IMG/VR virus record: IMGVR_UViG_3300035670_000683
Coordinates: 1-36,774 of that record
Reading direction: 5' to 3' (one strand)
Length of the DNA: 36,774 nt
DNA from: a virus
How positions within the stretch are numbered: the first letter of the stretch is position 1; each line of letters opens with the position of its first letter. The notes under the pieces were generated by a model. The model saw only the letters and a program-made list of their open reading frames with translations, had not been told where the DNA came from and ran no database searches. The translations under genes were made by a program, and so were the position numbers. Shown here one piece after another: positions 8,056 through 21,560 of the stretch.

Positions 8056-8601
8056 ATGACCACATCCCTGTTTGCACTGGCCGGTGATGCGCTGAGCATC
8101 CAACGGCAGATCAATGAAGCAGCTGAGCTGCTGTCCAGTGAAGACGCGAAAGAGGTGGCCGCTGCAGTGGCGGCGCTTGAGCGGTTGATTGATGCCGAGC
8201 ATGACAACCGCCAGGCGGTGGAGCGCAAGGCCGATGCGTGGTGCTGGGTGATCGACCAGCTGCGTGCGCAGGCGGTTGCGCAGGCCGAGCACGCGAAGCG
8301 TCTCAGTGAGCTGGCGAAGGCCACCGAACGCCAAGCTGATGGGCTGCAGGACCGGCTGATCAGCGTGCTGCAGAAGCTCGATGGCGACGCCACCAGCTGG
8401 ACGCTGCCGGAGCACAAGATCACCAGCCGGCGATCACTTGCAGTCGAGGTGGCCGTGAATCCGTCGGCACTGCCGCCGCGGTTCCAGCGGGTGAAGCTGA
8501 CCTACAGCGCGGACAAGACTGCGATCAAGGCCGCGCTGCAGGCCGGTGAGGCCGTGGAAGGTGCCGAGCTGGTGGAACGCCGCAGCTGGACAATCAAATG
8601 A
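8056..8601 (+). CDS. Siphovirus Gp157-like protein
   Basis: A 181-residue protein matching the Gp157 pattern. The N-terminal half is a helical coiled coil (LSIQRQINEAAELLSS ... LERLIDAEHDNRQAVERKAD ... AEHAKRLSELAKATERQADG). The C-terminal part is beta-rich with TLPEHKITSRRSLAVEV, PPRFQRVKLTYSADKTAIKA and ALQAGEAVEGAELVERRSW. The function of the family is not firmly established; a phage-resistance link has been suggested for a Streptococcus thermophilus homologue. It typically sits beside ERF/RecT and SSB genes, as here. The stop overlaps the next start by four bases (ATGA). Confidence 0.82.
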   Translation: MTTSLFALAGDALSIQRQINEAAELLSSEDAKEVAAAVAALERLIDAEHDNRQAVERKADAWCWVIDQLRAQAVAQAEHAKRLSELAKATERQADGLQDRLISVLQKLDGDATSWTLPEHKITSRRSLAVEVAVNPSALPPRFQRVKLTYSADKTAIKAALQAGEAVEGAELVERRSWTIK

Positions 8602-8867
8602 CGGCGGATGAACAGCTGGCGCTGCTGCTGGAGCTGCGCCACCAGGTGCCCGATGGCGTGCTGCTGGATTGGCTTGATCTGAAGCAGTGGCTGCAGCCGC
8701 CGTGCCGCGTGCAGGGAGCGCAGCTGATGGAGCGGTGGCATTGCAGCCAGCCGGCCGTGAGCAGACGGCTGAAGCGGCTGCGGGATGTGGGGCTGATGAG
8801 CTGCTGGTCAGAGCACGGCCGGTGCGGCGCGTATCACGTGCATTCACTGGATTGTGAACAGATGTAA
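8598..8867 (+). CDS. Small winged-helix/HTH DNA-binding protein
   Basis: An 89-residue protein with a helix-turn-helix at about residues 44-68 (LMERWHCSQPAVSRRLKRLR), followed by DVGLMSCWSEHGRCGAYHVH, which has the look of a wing. The recognition helix PAVSRRLKRL resembles MarR/replication-initiator-type domains. It is translationally coupled to the Gp157-like gene and ends 10 bases before the first duplicated leader element. It could regulate that leader or act in replication; neither is shown by sequence. Confidence 0.75.
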   Translation: MTADEQLALLLELRHQVPDGVLLDWLDLKQWLQPPCRVQGAQLMERWHCSQPAVSRRLKRLRDVGLMSCWSEHGRCGAYHVHSLDCEQM

Positions 8868-8877
8868 CGGGCTTGCA

Positions 8878-8949
8878 CGCAACTGCACTCAGTGTGGTGT
8901 ATATTGAATGAGTCGGGAGCGATCCCGGCGTCCCACCGCACCTGGACAA
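8878..8949 (+). promoter_or_regulatory. Promoter/leader element, copy 1, with 5' hairpin
   Basis: A 26-base block (8878-8903) starting CGCAACTGCACTC and ending GTGGTGTATA is identical to 9287-9312. It contains the dyad CACTCAGTG and a -10-like TATATT at 8900-8905. A hairpin follows (CGGGA, GCGA loop, TCCCG; 8914-8927), placed where a transcript starting about 7 bases after the -10 would begin. The element ends with CCGCACCTGGACAA (8936-8949), also shared with copy 2, directly before the ATG at 8950. No -35 consensus is seen. Confidence 0.7.
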
Positions 8950-9144
8950 ATGAATACCCGCACCGCCCTCGAGGCGCTGGCCCAGACGGCCAACGTGATC
9001 AGCGCCGCTGAATCCGTTGCCACCGCCCTGCAGGCACTGCGTGATGGCACCACTGAAGACCAGTGGGATCAGCTCTGTGACAACGAGCTGCTCGATGCCT
9101 TGATCGCCGCCTGCATGGATCTGGAAGCCGAACTTGAGGACTGA
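8950..9144 (+). CDS. Small acidic helical protein, cassette copy 1
   Basis: A 64-residue acidic, mostly helical protein (NTRTALEALAQTANVISA ... DQWDQLCDNELLDALIAA ... LEAELED) of unknown function. Its ATG touches the conserved leader motif CCGCACCTGGACAA. The longer frame from 8908 would read through the leader hairpin, so 8950 is preferred. With its own promoter-like element and a strong terminator right after the stop it is effectively monocistronic. Sixteen bases of coding sequence (ACCCGCACCGCCCTCG, 8956-8971) recur in the gene at 9450, and the proteins align as TRTAL-x3-A-x-TA-x2-I, so they look like diverged duplicates. Confidence 0.72.
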   Translation: MNTRTALEALAQTANVISAAESVATALQALRDGTTEDQWDQLCDNELLDALIAACMDLEAELED

Positions 9145-9150
9145 GCACCG

Positions 9151-9174
9151 GGGGCCTGCGGGCCCCTTTTTTTT
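9151..9174 (+). terminator. Strong rho-independent terminator
   Basis: The stem GGGGCC/GGCCCC with loop TGCG is followed by eight T residues, seven bases after the stop of the 64-residue gene. It isolates cassette copy 1 from copy 2. Confidence 0.93.
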
Positions 9175-9286
9175 GCCTGGCGGTCGGCGCTATCCGCAAG
9201 GACGCGCGCGGTGCTGCAGTCGCGGTGGCTGCAGCTGAAACCGTATCGGAGGCCGCTCAACAATCAACAAATGCAACGCAGCCGCG

Positions 9287-9350
9287 CGCAACTGCACTCA
9301 GTGTGGTGTATAGTTGCGTGCATGAGGGGCGCAGCCCCGCACCTGGACAA
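9287..9350 (+). promoter_or_regulatory. Promoter/leader element, copy 2, with 5' hairpin
   Basis: This second copy of the leader has the identical 26-base block at 9287-9312, a -10-like TATAGT at 9309-9314, a hairpin of different sequence (GGGGC, GCA loop, GCCCC; 9326-9338) and the same CCGCACCTGGACAA at 9337-9350. Copy 1 continues into ATG, whereas copy 2 continues into TTG, which is in frame with the gene at 9450. About 100 bases separate the leader from the better start at 9450. The rest of the 9145-9449 gap holds only the terminator and no gene I can support. Confidence 0.68.
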
Positions 9351-9449
9351 TTGCATATTCCGCGGGCGATCGGCCCGGCCCCGGTGGTGGCCTTAACCCA
9401 GGCACCCCATGAGTCCCGCCTGGGGGCTCAACCACACACCGGAGGACCG

Positions 9450-9650
9450 ATGGACGATCTCACCCGCACCGCCCTCGCCCGCGAGGCCGAAACCGCTGCG
9501 CTGATCGCGGAGCTGGATGAAGCATTCGCGGCGTGGTGCCGCTCCACCGAGCAGCTGCTGCAGACGGCCCAAGAGGCCATCGCGGTTGCTGACTCGATCG
9601 AGTCGGAACTGGCTGATGCCAGCGCCCGGCTCGCGGAGTGGGACTGCTGA
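9450..9650 (+). CDS. Small acidic helical protein, cassette copy 2
   Basis: A 66-residue acidic helical protein (DDLTRTALAREAETAALIAE ... STEQLLQTAQEAIAVADSIE) of unknown function. GGAGG lies four bases upstream of the ATG, which fixes this start against the longer in-frame TTG at 9351 that touches the leader. The N-terminal TRTALAREAETAALI resembles TRTALEALAQTANVI of the 64-residue protein, and the two genes share 16 identical bases. Together with the shared leader this indicates a duplicated cassette. A GC-rich hairpin follows the stop. Confidence 0.72.
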   Translation: MDDLTRTALAREAETAALIAELDEAFAAWCRSTEQLLQTAQEAIAVADSIESELADASARLAEWDC

Positions 9651-9658
9651 GGGCATCG

Positions 9659-9676
9659 CCCCGGGCCACCGGGGCT
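9659..9676 (+). terminator. Hairpin after cassette copy 2 (possible terminator)
   Basis: A perfect 7-bp stem GCCCCGG/CCGGGGC with loop GCCA starts nine bases after the stop. Only TT follows, so it is at best an inefficient intrinsic terminator or an mRNA-stabilising end. The 139-base gap to the next gene holds nothing else I can name. Confidence 0.4.
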
Positions 9677-9789
9677 TCAGTTGCAGGCCAGAAGCCCGAT
9701 AGAGCGCCCGGGATTCTCCGCTGCGGACAAGAGAGCAGCCTGCCAGCCGGGAGCAGCGATCTCGGCACCCATCCTTCTCTCCACCGCTC

Positions 9790-10723: not shown

Positions 10724-11626
10724 ATGGATTCCATCAATCAGTACCTGAACGAGATCTCCAGGCATCCGCTCCTGACGCCCACTGAGGAGATCGAATACAG
10801 CCGCCAGGTTCAGGCCATGCTGGCCCTGCAGGAGCAACAGCCAGACGCCAGCACATACGACCGGGAGCAGCGCATGATTGTTCGCCGCGGCCAGCGTGCC
10901 AAGGAGCGCATGATCGTGCGCAATCTCCGCCTGGTGGTGATAATCGCCAAGAAGTACACCAAACGGTGCACCACCCTGTCACTGCTAGATCTTGTGCAGG
11001 AGGGTTCCCTGGGGCTGAATCGCGCCGTTGAAAAGTTCGACCCGACCCGCGGCTACAAGTTCAGCACCTATGCCTACTGGTGGGTGCGGCAGTCGATCAA
11101 CCGCGGCTTGCAGGACAGCGACAGGATGATCAGGTTGCCGTTGCATTGCCAAGAAACGGTGATGAAGGCTAGGGCATACATGACGCGCCAGCTGGCGGTG
11201 ACAGGTCATACGCCGACGTTGGCCGAATGCGCCGAGCATCTAGAGATTGCACCGGATCAACTACAGCGCTCACTCACCATGGCGCAGGATGTCTGTAGCC
11301 TGAACGCACCGGCCGGGCAGGACAGTGACAAGAGCTTCATCATTGATCTGATCCCTGATGCACGTTCTTTTCAGGAAGATGATCCGTACCTGCTTGAGCG
11401 GGACATCTTGATGGATGCGATCGAGACGCTGAACGAAAGGGACAAGGACATCATCAAACGGCGCAACGGGCTCAACGGTTGCAAGCAAGAAACACTTGCT
11501 GCGATTGCGAAAGATTATGATGTCAGTCGCGAGCGGATACGCCAGCAAGAGAAGAAGGCGATAAACAAGGTGCGGCAGATGATCGGACCCATCACTGCTG
11601 CAAAACTGCGTGATGGATCTATGTAG
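10724..11626 (+). CDS. RpoD-like (cyanobacterial group 2 type) sigma-70 factor
   Basis: A 300-residue sigma-70 lacking region 1.1. Region 1.2 is DSINQYLNEISRHPLLTPTE (residues 2-21). Region 2 carries RNLRLVVIIAKKYTKR and FDPTRGYKFSTYAYWWVRQ (residues 105-123), the core-binding and -10-recognition segments. Region 3 spans about 140-220. Region 4 ends with the -35 HTH SRERIRQQEKKAINKVRQ. Layout and wording match non-essential group 2 sigma factors of picocyanobacteria, not phage gp55-type factors. Some normally constant positions differ (RQQE for the usual RQIE, RQSINRGLQ for RQAITRAI), so promoter preference may be altered. It closes the early operon, suggesting a role in switching host polymerase to phage promoters. 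The codons look somewhat less GC-rich than in neighbouring genes. Confidence 0.93.
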   Translation: MDSINQYLNEISRHPLLTPTEEIEYSRQVQAMLALQEQQPDASTYDREQRMIVRRGQRAKERMIVRNLRLVVIIAKKYTKRCTTLSLLDLVQEGSLGLNRAVEKFDPTRGYKFSTYAYWWVRQSINRGLQDSDRMIRLPLHCQETVMKARAYMTRQLAVTGHTPTLAECAEHLEIAPDQLQRSLTMAQDVCSLNAPAGQDSDKSFIIDLIPDARSFQEDDPYLLERDILMDAIETLNERDKDIIKRRNGLNGCKQETLAAIAKDYDVSRERIRQQEKKAINKVRQMIGPITAAKLRDGSM

Positions 11627-20499: not shown

Positions 20500-21560
20500 A
20501 CCACAAACGCTCCAATGCCGGGGAATGCGCCATAGGGCAGTTCAGCCGACTGCCCGAAGTGTGCGCGGCAATCGTCCAGTGTCTTGTTGCAGGTGGGCAG
20601 GCCACCTGTGTAGCCGCATTCAGCCGACCGGTAGCGCCACTGACAGATGTTGGCGATGCACTGCCGTTTAGGGGCACGAACGCCCGCCAGGTCAAACGCG
20701 GCCGCCAGCTCGAACTCCACCACGTCTCTGGTTTCAACCGTCTTGCGGTCGATGTAATAGATCTCGCGGGGAAACTCGGCACTTGGGTCAGGCGTACCGA
20801 ACGGGTTGTTTTCAGCAGCAGGGAAGTTGTCGGAGTCGATGTATCGCGCCAAAGTGCGAATCCGTGTCACCTTGGCACCTTCCAATCCATCCGGCAGCGT
20901 CTGCATCAGTGCTGTGATGGTGCTTAGCACATTGCTGGCGCGAAGCCTAGGCCGCGGCAGCTGGCCATTCCCGCTGTACTCAAATCCTTCCGCTTCAATG
21001 GGGAATGCCAGATACTCATTGCCAGCCCAATAGAGCGAACCATTGTTGTTCAGGCTTGTGCCTGCGTGGAAGCGAAAAACGTCATTGCTGCCATGCTGCT
21101 CTGGGTTGAGCTGCAATTCAAACAGCTCAATAATTGAGCTTGGGTTGACGGACTGCAGCTCTGAAATAATCTGCAGTGCTGGCAGGTTGACCGCTGATGC
21201 GGTGCCGGTCGCCCAGATTGCTGTTCCGTTTGCTGCGTAAAGAGCAAAGTTGCCATCGTCTTGTATGACAAGACGATCCGAGACCAACCCGGACGGGTTA
21301 TTGACGCCACCAGTGAAAGTGTCGGATGAATAGGTAACAACACCATCGCCGTTGCGTCTGATGGTGATGTTTGAATCGCCTTGGTGGTACAGCGTGCTCG
21401 GGCCATTGCCGTCTGTGTTGGTGGCCCAGCGGGGGGCAAAGTCGCGGTCATAGATGACAAGGTTGCCATCGCTTTGCATCACCAAGCGGTAGTGCCCGCT
21501 GTTGGCAATCAGCTCATTGCCGCTGGTAAGGATCTGGCCCCTGAGCAGCCGGTCAGTCAT
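20496..21560 (-). CDS. L: gpL-like minor tail protein with an N-terminal B-lectin domain
   Basis: A 354-residue fusion. Residues 1-120 form a bulb-type mannose-binding (GNA-like, beta-prism II) lectin with three Q-x-D-x-N motifs: [10 protein letters not shown] at 29, QGDSNITIR at 60 and [10 protein letters not shown] at 100. Residues from about 121 match lambda gp[38 protein letters not shown] and the C-terminal Cys set (Cys301, 306, 315, 324, 331). gpL-type proteins hold an iron-sulfur cluster with four such cysteines. Lambda gpL is about 232 residues, so the size excess equals the lectin. The frame is continuous, with ATGA overlaps on both sides. The lectin probably displays sugar binding at the tail tip. 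Confidence 0.9.

Follow-up and report, generated by a model that had tools for sequence, protein, structure and literature searches.

Two small-gene cassettes in the window, by which we mean the whole 36,774-base virus record analysed here, open with a short GC-rich hairpin followed by a boxA-like tail, and judging from sequence there is about an even chance that they carry a phage form of the rrn-type boxB-boxA antitermination leader on portable small-gene units. The leader architecture, its conservation, its covariation and its similarity to boxA were observed directly, as were a conserved RNA and promoterless genes behind a terminator. Together these suggest that picocyanobacterial viruses borrow host rRNA transcription machinery to pass stop signals and make early RNAs. 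The large terminase shares 94% identity with its counterpart in Synechococcus phage S-CBS3 and the sigma factor, compared in the same way, shares 64%, which identifies the window as a picocyanobacterial siphovirus. The cassettes sit in a rightward region between a winged-helix gene (8598-8867), which has a weak ArsR/MarR-type HTH match, and the sigma factor gene (10724-11626). Features are listed in Table 1; the IMG/VR contigs used as relatives are fragments.

Table 1 Features of the two cassettes and the region between them, in window coordinates.
Feature	Position	Strand	Description	Support
Promoter 1	8878..8905	+	26-nt block + -10 box TATATT (8900-8905)	good -35 lacking; recurs in cassette 2, not in relatives
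boxB-like hairpin 1	8912..8929	+	GTCGGGA[GCGA]TCCCGGC	shuffle hairpin test; stem covaries between relatives
boxA-like tail 1	8938..8956	+	GCACCTGGACAA + D4-like ATGAATA with gene 1 start codon	14/19 to cyanobacterial boxA-D4, p 2e-4; window's top-scoring site
Gene 1 (P1)	8950..9144	+	64-aa acidic all-helical protein	relatives in 20 loci
Gene 1 intrinsic terminator	9150..9175	+	GGGGGCC TGCG GGCCCCT + T-run	stem 9150-9167
77-nt structured RNA	9180..9256	+	three-way junction: P1 GCGGUC/GGCCGC, P2 with GNRA loop, bipartite P3	
Promoter 2	9287..9314	+	second 26-nt block copy + -10 box TATAGT (9309-9314)	
boxB-like hairpin 2	9326..9338	+	GGGGC[GCA]GCCCC	GGGC/GCCC-type hairpins in homologues L013, L007, L177, L042
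boxA-like tail 2	9339..9357	+	GCACCTGGACAA + TTGCATA, away from start codon	15/19 to boxA-D4, p 2e-4
Second hairpin of leader 2	9363..9377	+	CGGGC[GATCG]GCCCG	from sequence; other-sequence hairpins here in homologues
Gene 2 (P2)	9450..9650	+	66-aa acidic protein, Shine-Dalgarno GGAGG before ATG	

The first-pass annotation had described an identical 26-base block ahead of each gene, and this block, CGCAACTGCACTCAGTGTGGTGTATA, is indeed exact at 8878-8903 and 9287-9312 and occurs exactly twice. A 27-nt version gave two matches where none was expected from 100 shuffles, and the similarity of the two copies reaches 47 nt at 83% (8857-8903 versus 9266-9312). Each block is followed by the -10-like box that had been proposed, and the combination of a good -10 with no good -35 indicates that transcription here probably depends on an activator or on the sigma factor that the phage encodes. 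No exact copy of the block was found elsewhere among 2.9 million viral contigs, and relatives replace it with repeated promoters of their own, such as TTGACCACGGCGGCGCATGG-type copies. The operator is thus phage-specific, with the duplicated block confined to this phage, while the leader is common to many phages. Additional copies of such phage-specific promoters, followed by 5' hairpins of varying sequence and often by a different tail (CCGAGAACCATG), lie at L008 2232, L018 5658 and 5919, and L020 5657, which may mean that a 5' hairpin is a general feature of such promoters. Upstream of the leader promoters, at about 8852-8870 and 9266-9280 in the window and also in the L008 and L013 groups, there is another stretch of conserved DNA (about TTGTGAANAGATGTNAC) that may be a distal site for a regulator.

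The two hairpins differ in sequence and occupy similar places, at the predicted 5' end of the transcript. Base changes between them had been said to keep the stems paired, and homologous leaders bear this out with paired substitutions in which stems are rewritten and pairing is kept. Stem variants include CGGGA/UCCCG, CGCCA/UGGCG, GGGCG/CGCCC, GGGGG/CCCCC, UGGCA/UGCCA, GCAGGC/GCCUGC, GGAGGC/GCUUCC and GGAUGC/GCAUCC, and the loops are often, not always, GNRA (GCGA, GAAA). Eight ungapped tetraloop stems pair in 40/40 cells with 10 two-sided changes versus 2.7 in shuffles, a count in which choosing each hairpin as the best stem favours pairing. The shuffle test for hairpin presence is for that reason the fairer test, and it gave a combined p of 6e-7 across families that are partly related. 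Folding z-scores of single leaders were uninformative in this GC-rich DNA, and the shuffle hairpin test and covariation counts were used instead. The leader was also considered as a coding frame, with an in-frame ATG at 8908; this ATG is lost in relatives and the spacer length varies by one base, which rules out a reading frame through the hairpin. Behind the gene 2 boxA, positions 9358-9449 contain a conserved hairpin-forming sequence (GGTGGTGGCC ... CCCGCC ... CTCAACC) that is kept in eight homologues. Against Rfam 15 the window gave no match at gathering scores, with only chance-level matches at E<=5 in 8860-9700.

Both the private promoters and the attachment of the leader to many different genes would also fit an element acting at the DNA level, a shared operator or a recombination boundary of moron-like cassettes in which the hairpin is an inverted repeat for a DNA-binding protein. 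However, the compensatory stem changes point to RNA, as does spacing to the -10 box that varies while hairpin and tail are kept, and the operator differs between phages where the leader does not. We consider a DNA-level element very improbable.

The sequence shared behind both hairpins, CCGCACCTGGACAA, is exact at 8936-8949 and 9337-9350, as first reported. Its boxA character was missed in that reading, and recognizing it turns what was read simply as a leader into an antitermination-type leader. In cyanobacteria boxA reads GAACCTTGAAAA, with D4 CTGCATA behind it (PMC8461337), and the Arthrospira ITS is alike (PMC8125830). Compared with the cyanobacterial rRNA boxA GAACCUUGAAAACUGCAUA, for which the references are not picocyanobacterial, the window tails match at 14-15 of 19 positions. 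Both copies reach p about 2e-4 against shuffled tails in the 19-base match, a comparison that was chosen after the motif was seen. The best boxA-D4 match falls exactly on the conserved tail, at p <= 0.02, in 17/20 tails (19-base form). When the window and the isolated marine phage S-H1 were each scored with a matrix built partly from their leaders, the two leaders came out clearly ahead of all other sites. Residues C4 and T6 of boxA, important in E. coli (PMC5725501), are unchanged in every copy. A plasmid rrn operon of Allocoleopsis carries the same boxA-D4, preceded by a hairpin CTGGAC/GTCCAG; a CRISPR leader was considered as the source of this plasmid match and rejected because the site is an rrn operon.

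Tails of cassette-2 orthologues grade from the window form, GCACCTGGACAATTGCATA (15/19 to boxA-D4), into the near-canonical boxA of L177 (GCACCTTGAAAACCGAATA), L184 (GATCCTTGAAAACCGAATA) and L176 (GATCCTTGAAAACTGAATA, 17/19); the homologous position reads GCACCTAGACAATGGAATA in L042 and GAACCTGGACAACCGCATA in L013. The P1-type copies differ from boxA in two residues (T7 to R, A10 to C), and their start codon AUGAAU occupies the place of CUGAAU or CUGCAU in boxA-D4. Given this divergence and overlap, NusB-S10 might bind weakly, and the diverged copies may bind weakly or have changed role. An exact GATCCTTGAAAACTGAATA boxA is also found in Bacillus phage Stills (L249, KP696448, 1201-1219), where it sits about 25-30 nt past a consensus promoter (TTGACT..TATAAT), within a long leader that separates a terminator from a small gene; boxA leaders may thus occur in other phages as well.

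The position of the start codon bears on what the tail does. In cassette 1 the ATG abuts the 14-mer, and in cassette 2 the ATG has a GGAGG Shine-Dalgarno and lies about 100 nt behind it. A stability and translation leader, with a 5' hairpin that blocks 5'-end-dependent RNase E decay, an unstructured C/A-rich tail that serves as a Shine-Dalgarno-less ribosome entry site, and a boxA likeness that is coincidental or vestigial, would account for a hairpin at the predicted +1 whose sequence is free while pairing is kept and for a P1-type tail that abuts the AUG without a Shine-Dalgarno. A cyanophage is also reported to exploit and raise host RNase E in infection (reviewed in PMC10989914). However, cassette 2 keeps the tail despite its distant start codon and own Shine-Dalgarno, and there the tail is closer to boxA, so it is not merely a ribosome site; nor would a ribosome site call for an identical 13-base sequence in front of ten gene families. 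We regard the stability leader as possible, though on the unlikely side. The AUG embedded in the boxA-D4-like stretch of P1-type cassettes would also suit a Nus-controlled translation switch as for E. coli suhB, where NusB-S10 on the tail would block the ribosome at that AUG and the small protein would be made only when Nus factors are scarce. This is improbable in our view, as it leaves unexplained the distant AUG of cassette 2 as well as what lies past the terminator, namely a conserved RNA and genes lacking a promoter. Three further candidates were set aside. The tail is not a Shine-Dalgarno or SAS-type start signal, having no Shine-Dalgarno core and being kept away from starts; pairing of YCGCACCU with 16S helix 45 (3' strand, 7-8 bp) would require that rRNA helix to be open, and boxA explains more; and TTG 9351 as the P2 start is replaced by CCG or TAG in L013 and L007.

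Further copies of the leader elsewhere had been set as a test of the regulatory-leader proposal, and they are present in related phages; together with the paired substitutions in homologous leaders, they uphold a phage regulatory leader with a hairpin under selection. P1 relatives were identified in 20 viral loci, and upstream of them lies either the same hairpin or a different hairpin in the same place, plus the same tail; five loci (type C) have the tail without a hairpin. Pattern scans enlarged the leader set well beyond the P1 loci, with CGCACMTRRACAAATGAA matching 35 stretches versus 4 for a reversed control pattern. In all, a promoter-proximal hairpin with CGCACCURRACAA was found in more than 40 viral contigs and, in two copies, in S-H1. 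The leader precedes about ten small-gene families that show no convincing match among one another, and nearly all leader-bearing contigs are related at the protein level to S-H1, S-CBS or the window. One S-H1 copy stands before a P1 homologue and the other before an unannotated 82-aa ORF with a terminator behind; the two hairpins lie upstream of 21138 (+) and 3825 (-). This ORF (MNLDRPRAKQVIIGIFAAMES...; MK105819, about 21152-21400, + strand) lies opposite an annotated hypothetical gene and has a promoter-like -10, a hairpin and a boxA-like tail besides its terminator. The leader was not found in the examined parts of S-CBS1 and S-CBS3. A scan of host chromosomes from 84,980 prokaryote species returned 20 pattern matches, about the chance level, with none in a cyanobacterial-named record.

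The first cassette has its own strong terminator directly past gene 1, as had been predicted. Just behind it on the same strand, between the cassettes, we identified a 77-nt structured RNA that lies inside the range covered by the first-pass annotation and was missed there. In 21/21 aligned copies, 31-38 nt separate it from the stop of the P1-type or F2 leader gene ahead, and its covariance model gave strong matches in 36/67 sources plus two distant ones (L231, L013). Among 23 distinct sequences, two-sided changes occur in 15/28 pairs versus 6.1 after shuffling and no more than 3 after sliding, a count that leans towards structure because the alignment was fitted to the model; an unfitted alignment gave 28 two-sided cells versus 8.9. 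Three invariant G-U pairs establish the gene strand as the RNA strand. With no match in Rfam 15, the element is a previously undescribed orphan structured RNA with strong covariation. Divergent copies at L013 1592-1680 and L231 2655-2736 (-) stand apart from the leader gene, located between other genes or behind them, and the RNA is therefore not bound to a single cassette. In L015, L167, L170 and L180, the sequence just behind the RNA (GGCGGGATTCGAACCCGC and neighbours) looks, in reverse complement, like the T-arm and 3' end of a tRNA; no whole tRNA was found there, and the stretch is possibly an attachment site.

In six contigs (L006, L008, L009, L018, L020 and L025), some 26-37 nt separate the 77-nt RNA from the start of the next gene, and in five of them this gene encodes DPBB_1, a lytic-transglycosylase-like protein. 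No sigma-70-like promoter was found in these contigs between the gene-1 stop and the next start, though the terminator is present, which means that the terminator is leaky or bypassed. The boxA-like leader would be a natural candidate for the bypass. In the mechanism we propose, the transcript from a phage-specific promoter would open with a short GC hairpin standing in for boxB and then the boxA-like sequence. On emerging from RNA polymerase, this boxA-like RNA would recruit host NusB-S10 and other Nus factors, and the modified, processive polymerase would pass the gene 1 intrinsic terminator, reading on into the 77-nt RNA and, for many relatives, into the gene beyond. The stem would be free in sequence while paired, the boxA residues would be what is read, and the acidic proteins would be expressed early and strongly. 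Against the antitermination reading, the P1-type tails diverge from boxA and overlap the start codon, the type C loci lack a hairpin, S-CBS1 and S-CBS3 lack the leader in the parts examined, and several leader genes have no terminator behind them. Cyanobacteria are not known to carry Rho, and hence the best-known benefit of boxA does not apply, which also counts against it.

The small acidic proteins announced behind each leader are there, with 64 and 66 aa and a pI of 4.05 for both, at charges of -12.5 (P1) and -11.5 (P2). AlphaFold2 modelled P1 as a three-helix protein (pLDDT 84.5). The genes share 16 coding bases, ACCCGCACCGCCCTCG, at 8956 and 9462, as noted before; the idea that P1 and P2 form one family did not hold, their similarity being one 16-aa stretch with a BLAST E of 0.009 in a single comparison. 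The TRTAL pattern said to unite them is present in both window genes and absent from the P2 homologue of L013, and kinship is doubtful. Neither protein matched a Pfam, PHROGs or PADLOC family above cut-off, and a fold search with P1 returned nothing significant in PDB or viral models. A takeover or counter-defence role of the proteins is possible.

Among known systems, rrn leaders have the order boxB-boxA-boxC, with boxA as the necessary part (PMC10250234). The phage leaders resemble them and the boxB-boxA-D4 of the cyanobacterial 16S-23S ITS in having a hairpin, missing in type C loci, and then boxA, near the predicted transcript 5' end, with a recognizable D4-like extension and with C4 and T6 kept. 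They differ in lying in small-gene mRNA leaders, in hairpin loops that are often GNRA, and, in the P1 type, in a tail diverged at two positions with an embedded start codon. Bacteriophage lambda has the layout PL-nutL-N-tL1. Similar to its nut sites (nutL, nutR), a phage leader with boxA and a small hairpin is followed by a small gene, a terminator and further genes; however, the order is hairpin-boxA and not boxA-boxB, so the leader was not classed as a nut site. The small proteins are acidic and not Arg-rich like N, and the lack of conservation in hairpin stem and loop sequence implies no N-like specific reader. Cluster K mycobacteriophages carry the SAS, a 13-bp GGGATAGGAGCCC with the Shine-Dalgarno core AGGAG immediately ahead of the start codon; in about half of the cases an inverted repeat, judged not to be an RNA hairpin, lies upstream (ESAS; PMC3203893). 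These also place a short conserved sequence just upstream of diverse small phage gene starts. In contrast, the tail GCACCTRGACAA has no AGGAG core and is off the start codon in cassette 2, which sets it outside the SAS, and the phage leader stems covary and the motif resembles boxA. The suhB-type boxA mRNAs likewise have boxA in an mRNA leader near the translation start, but they belong to chromosomal gamma-proteobacterial genes with Rho-linked repression in suhB and no shared hairpin cassette (PMC5725501). In the open-access literature searched, we found no work that joins cyanophage with boxA, a nut site or NusB.

Taken furthest, and offered tentatively as unlikely in full, the cassettes would form a portable module of cyanobacterial siphoviruses, in which a phage promoter, a host-mimicking boxB-boxA, an acidic gene, a terminator and a 77-nt cis-acting RNA, by analogy for example a put-like polymerase-modifying RNA, would jointly regulate readthrough in Rho-less hosts. 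The leader flags small early genes missed in annotation, the S-H1 ORF being one example, and the 77-nt RNA adds a new family of structured RNAs that calls for an explanation. Finally, the findings raise the question of the role of boxA in bacteria without Rho, and, with a host-like boxA present in many phage leaders, capture of the rRNA antitermination machinery by non-lambdoid phages becomes amenable to direct testing.
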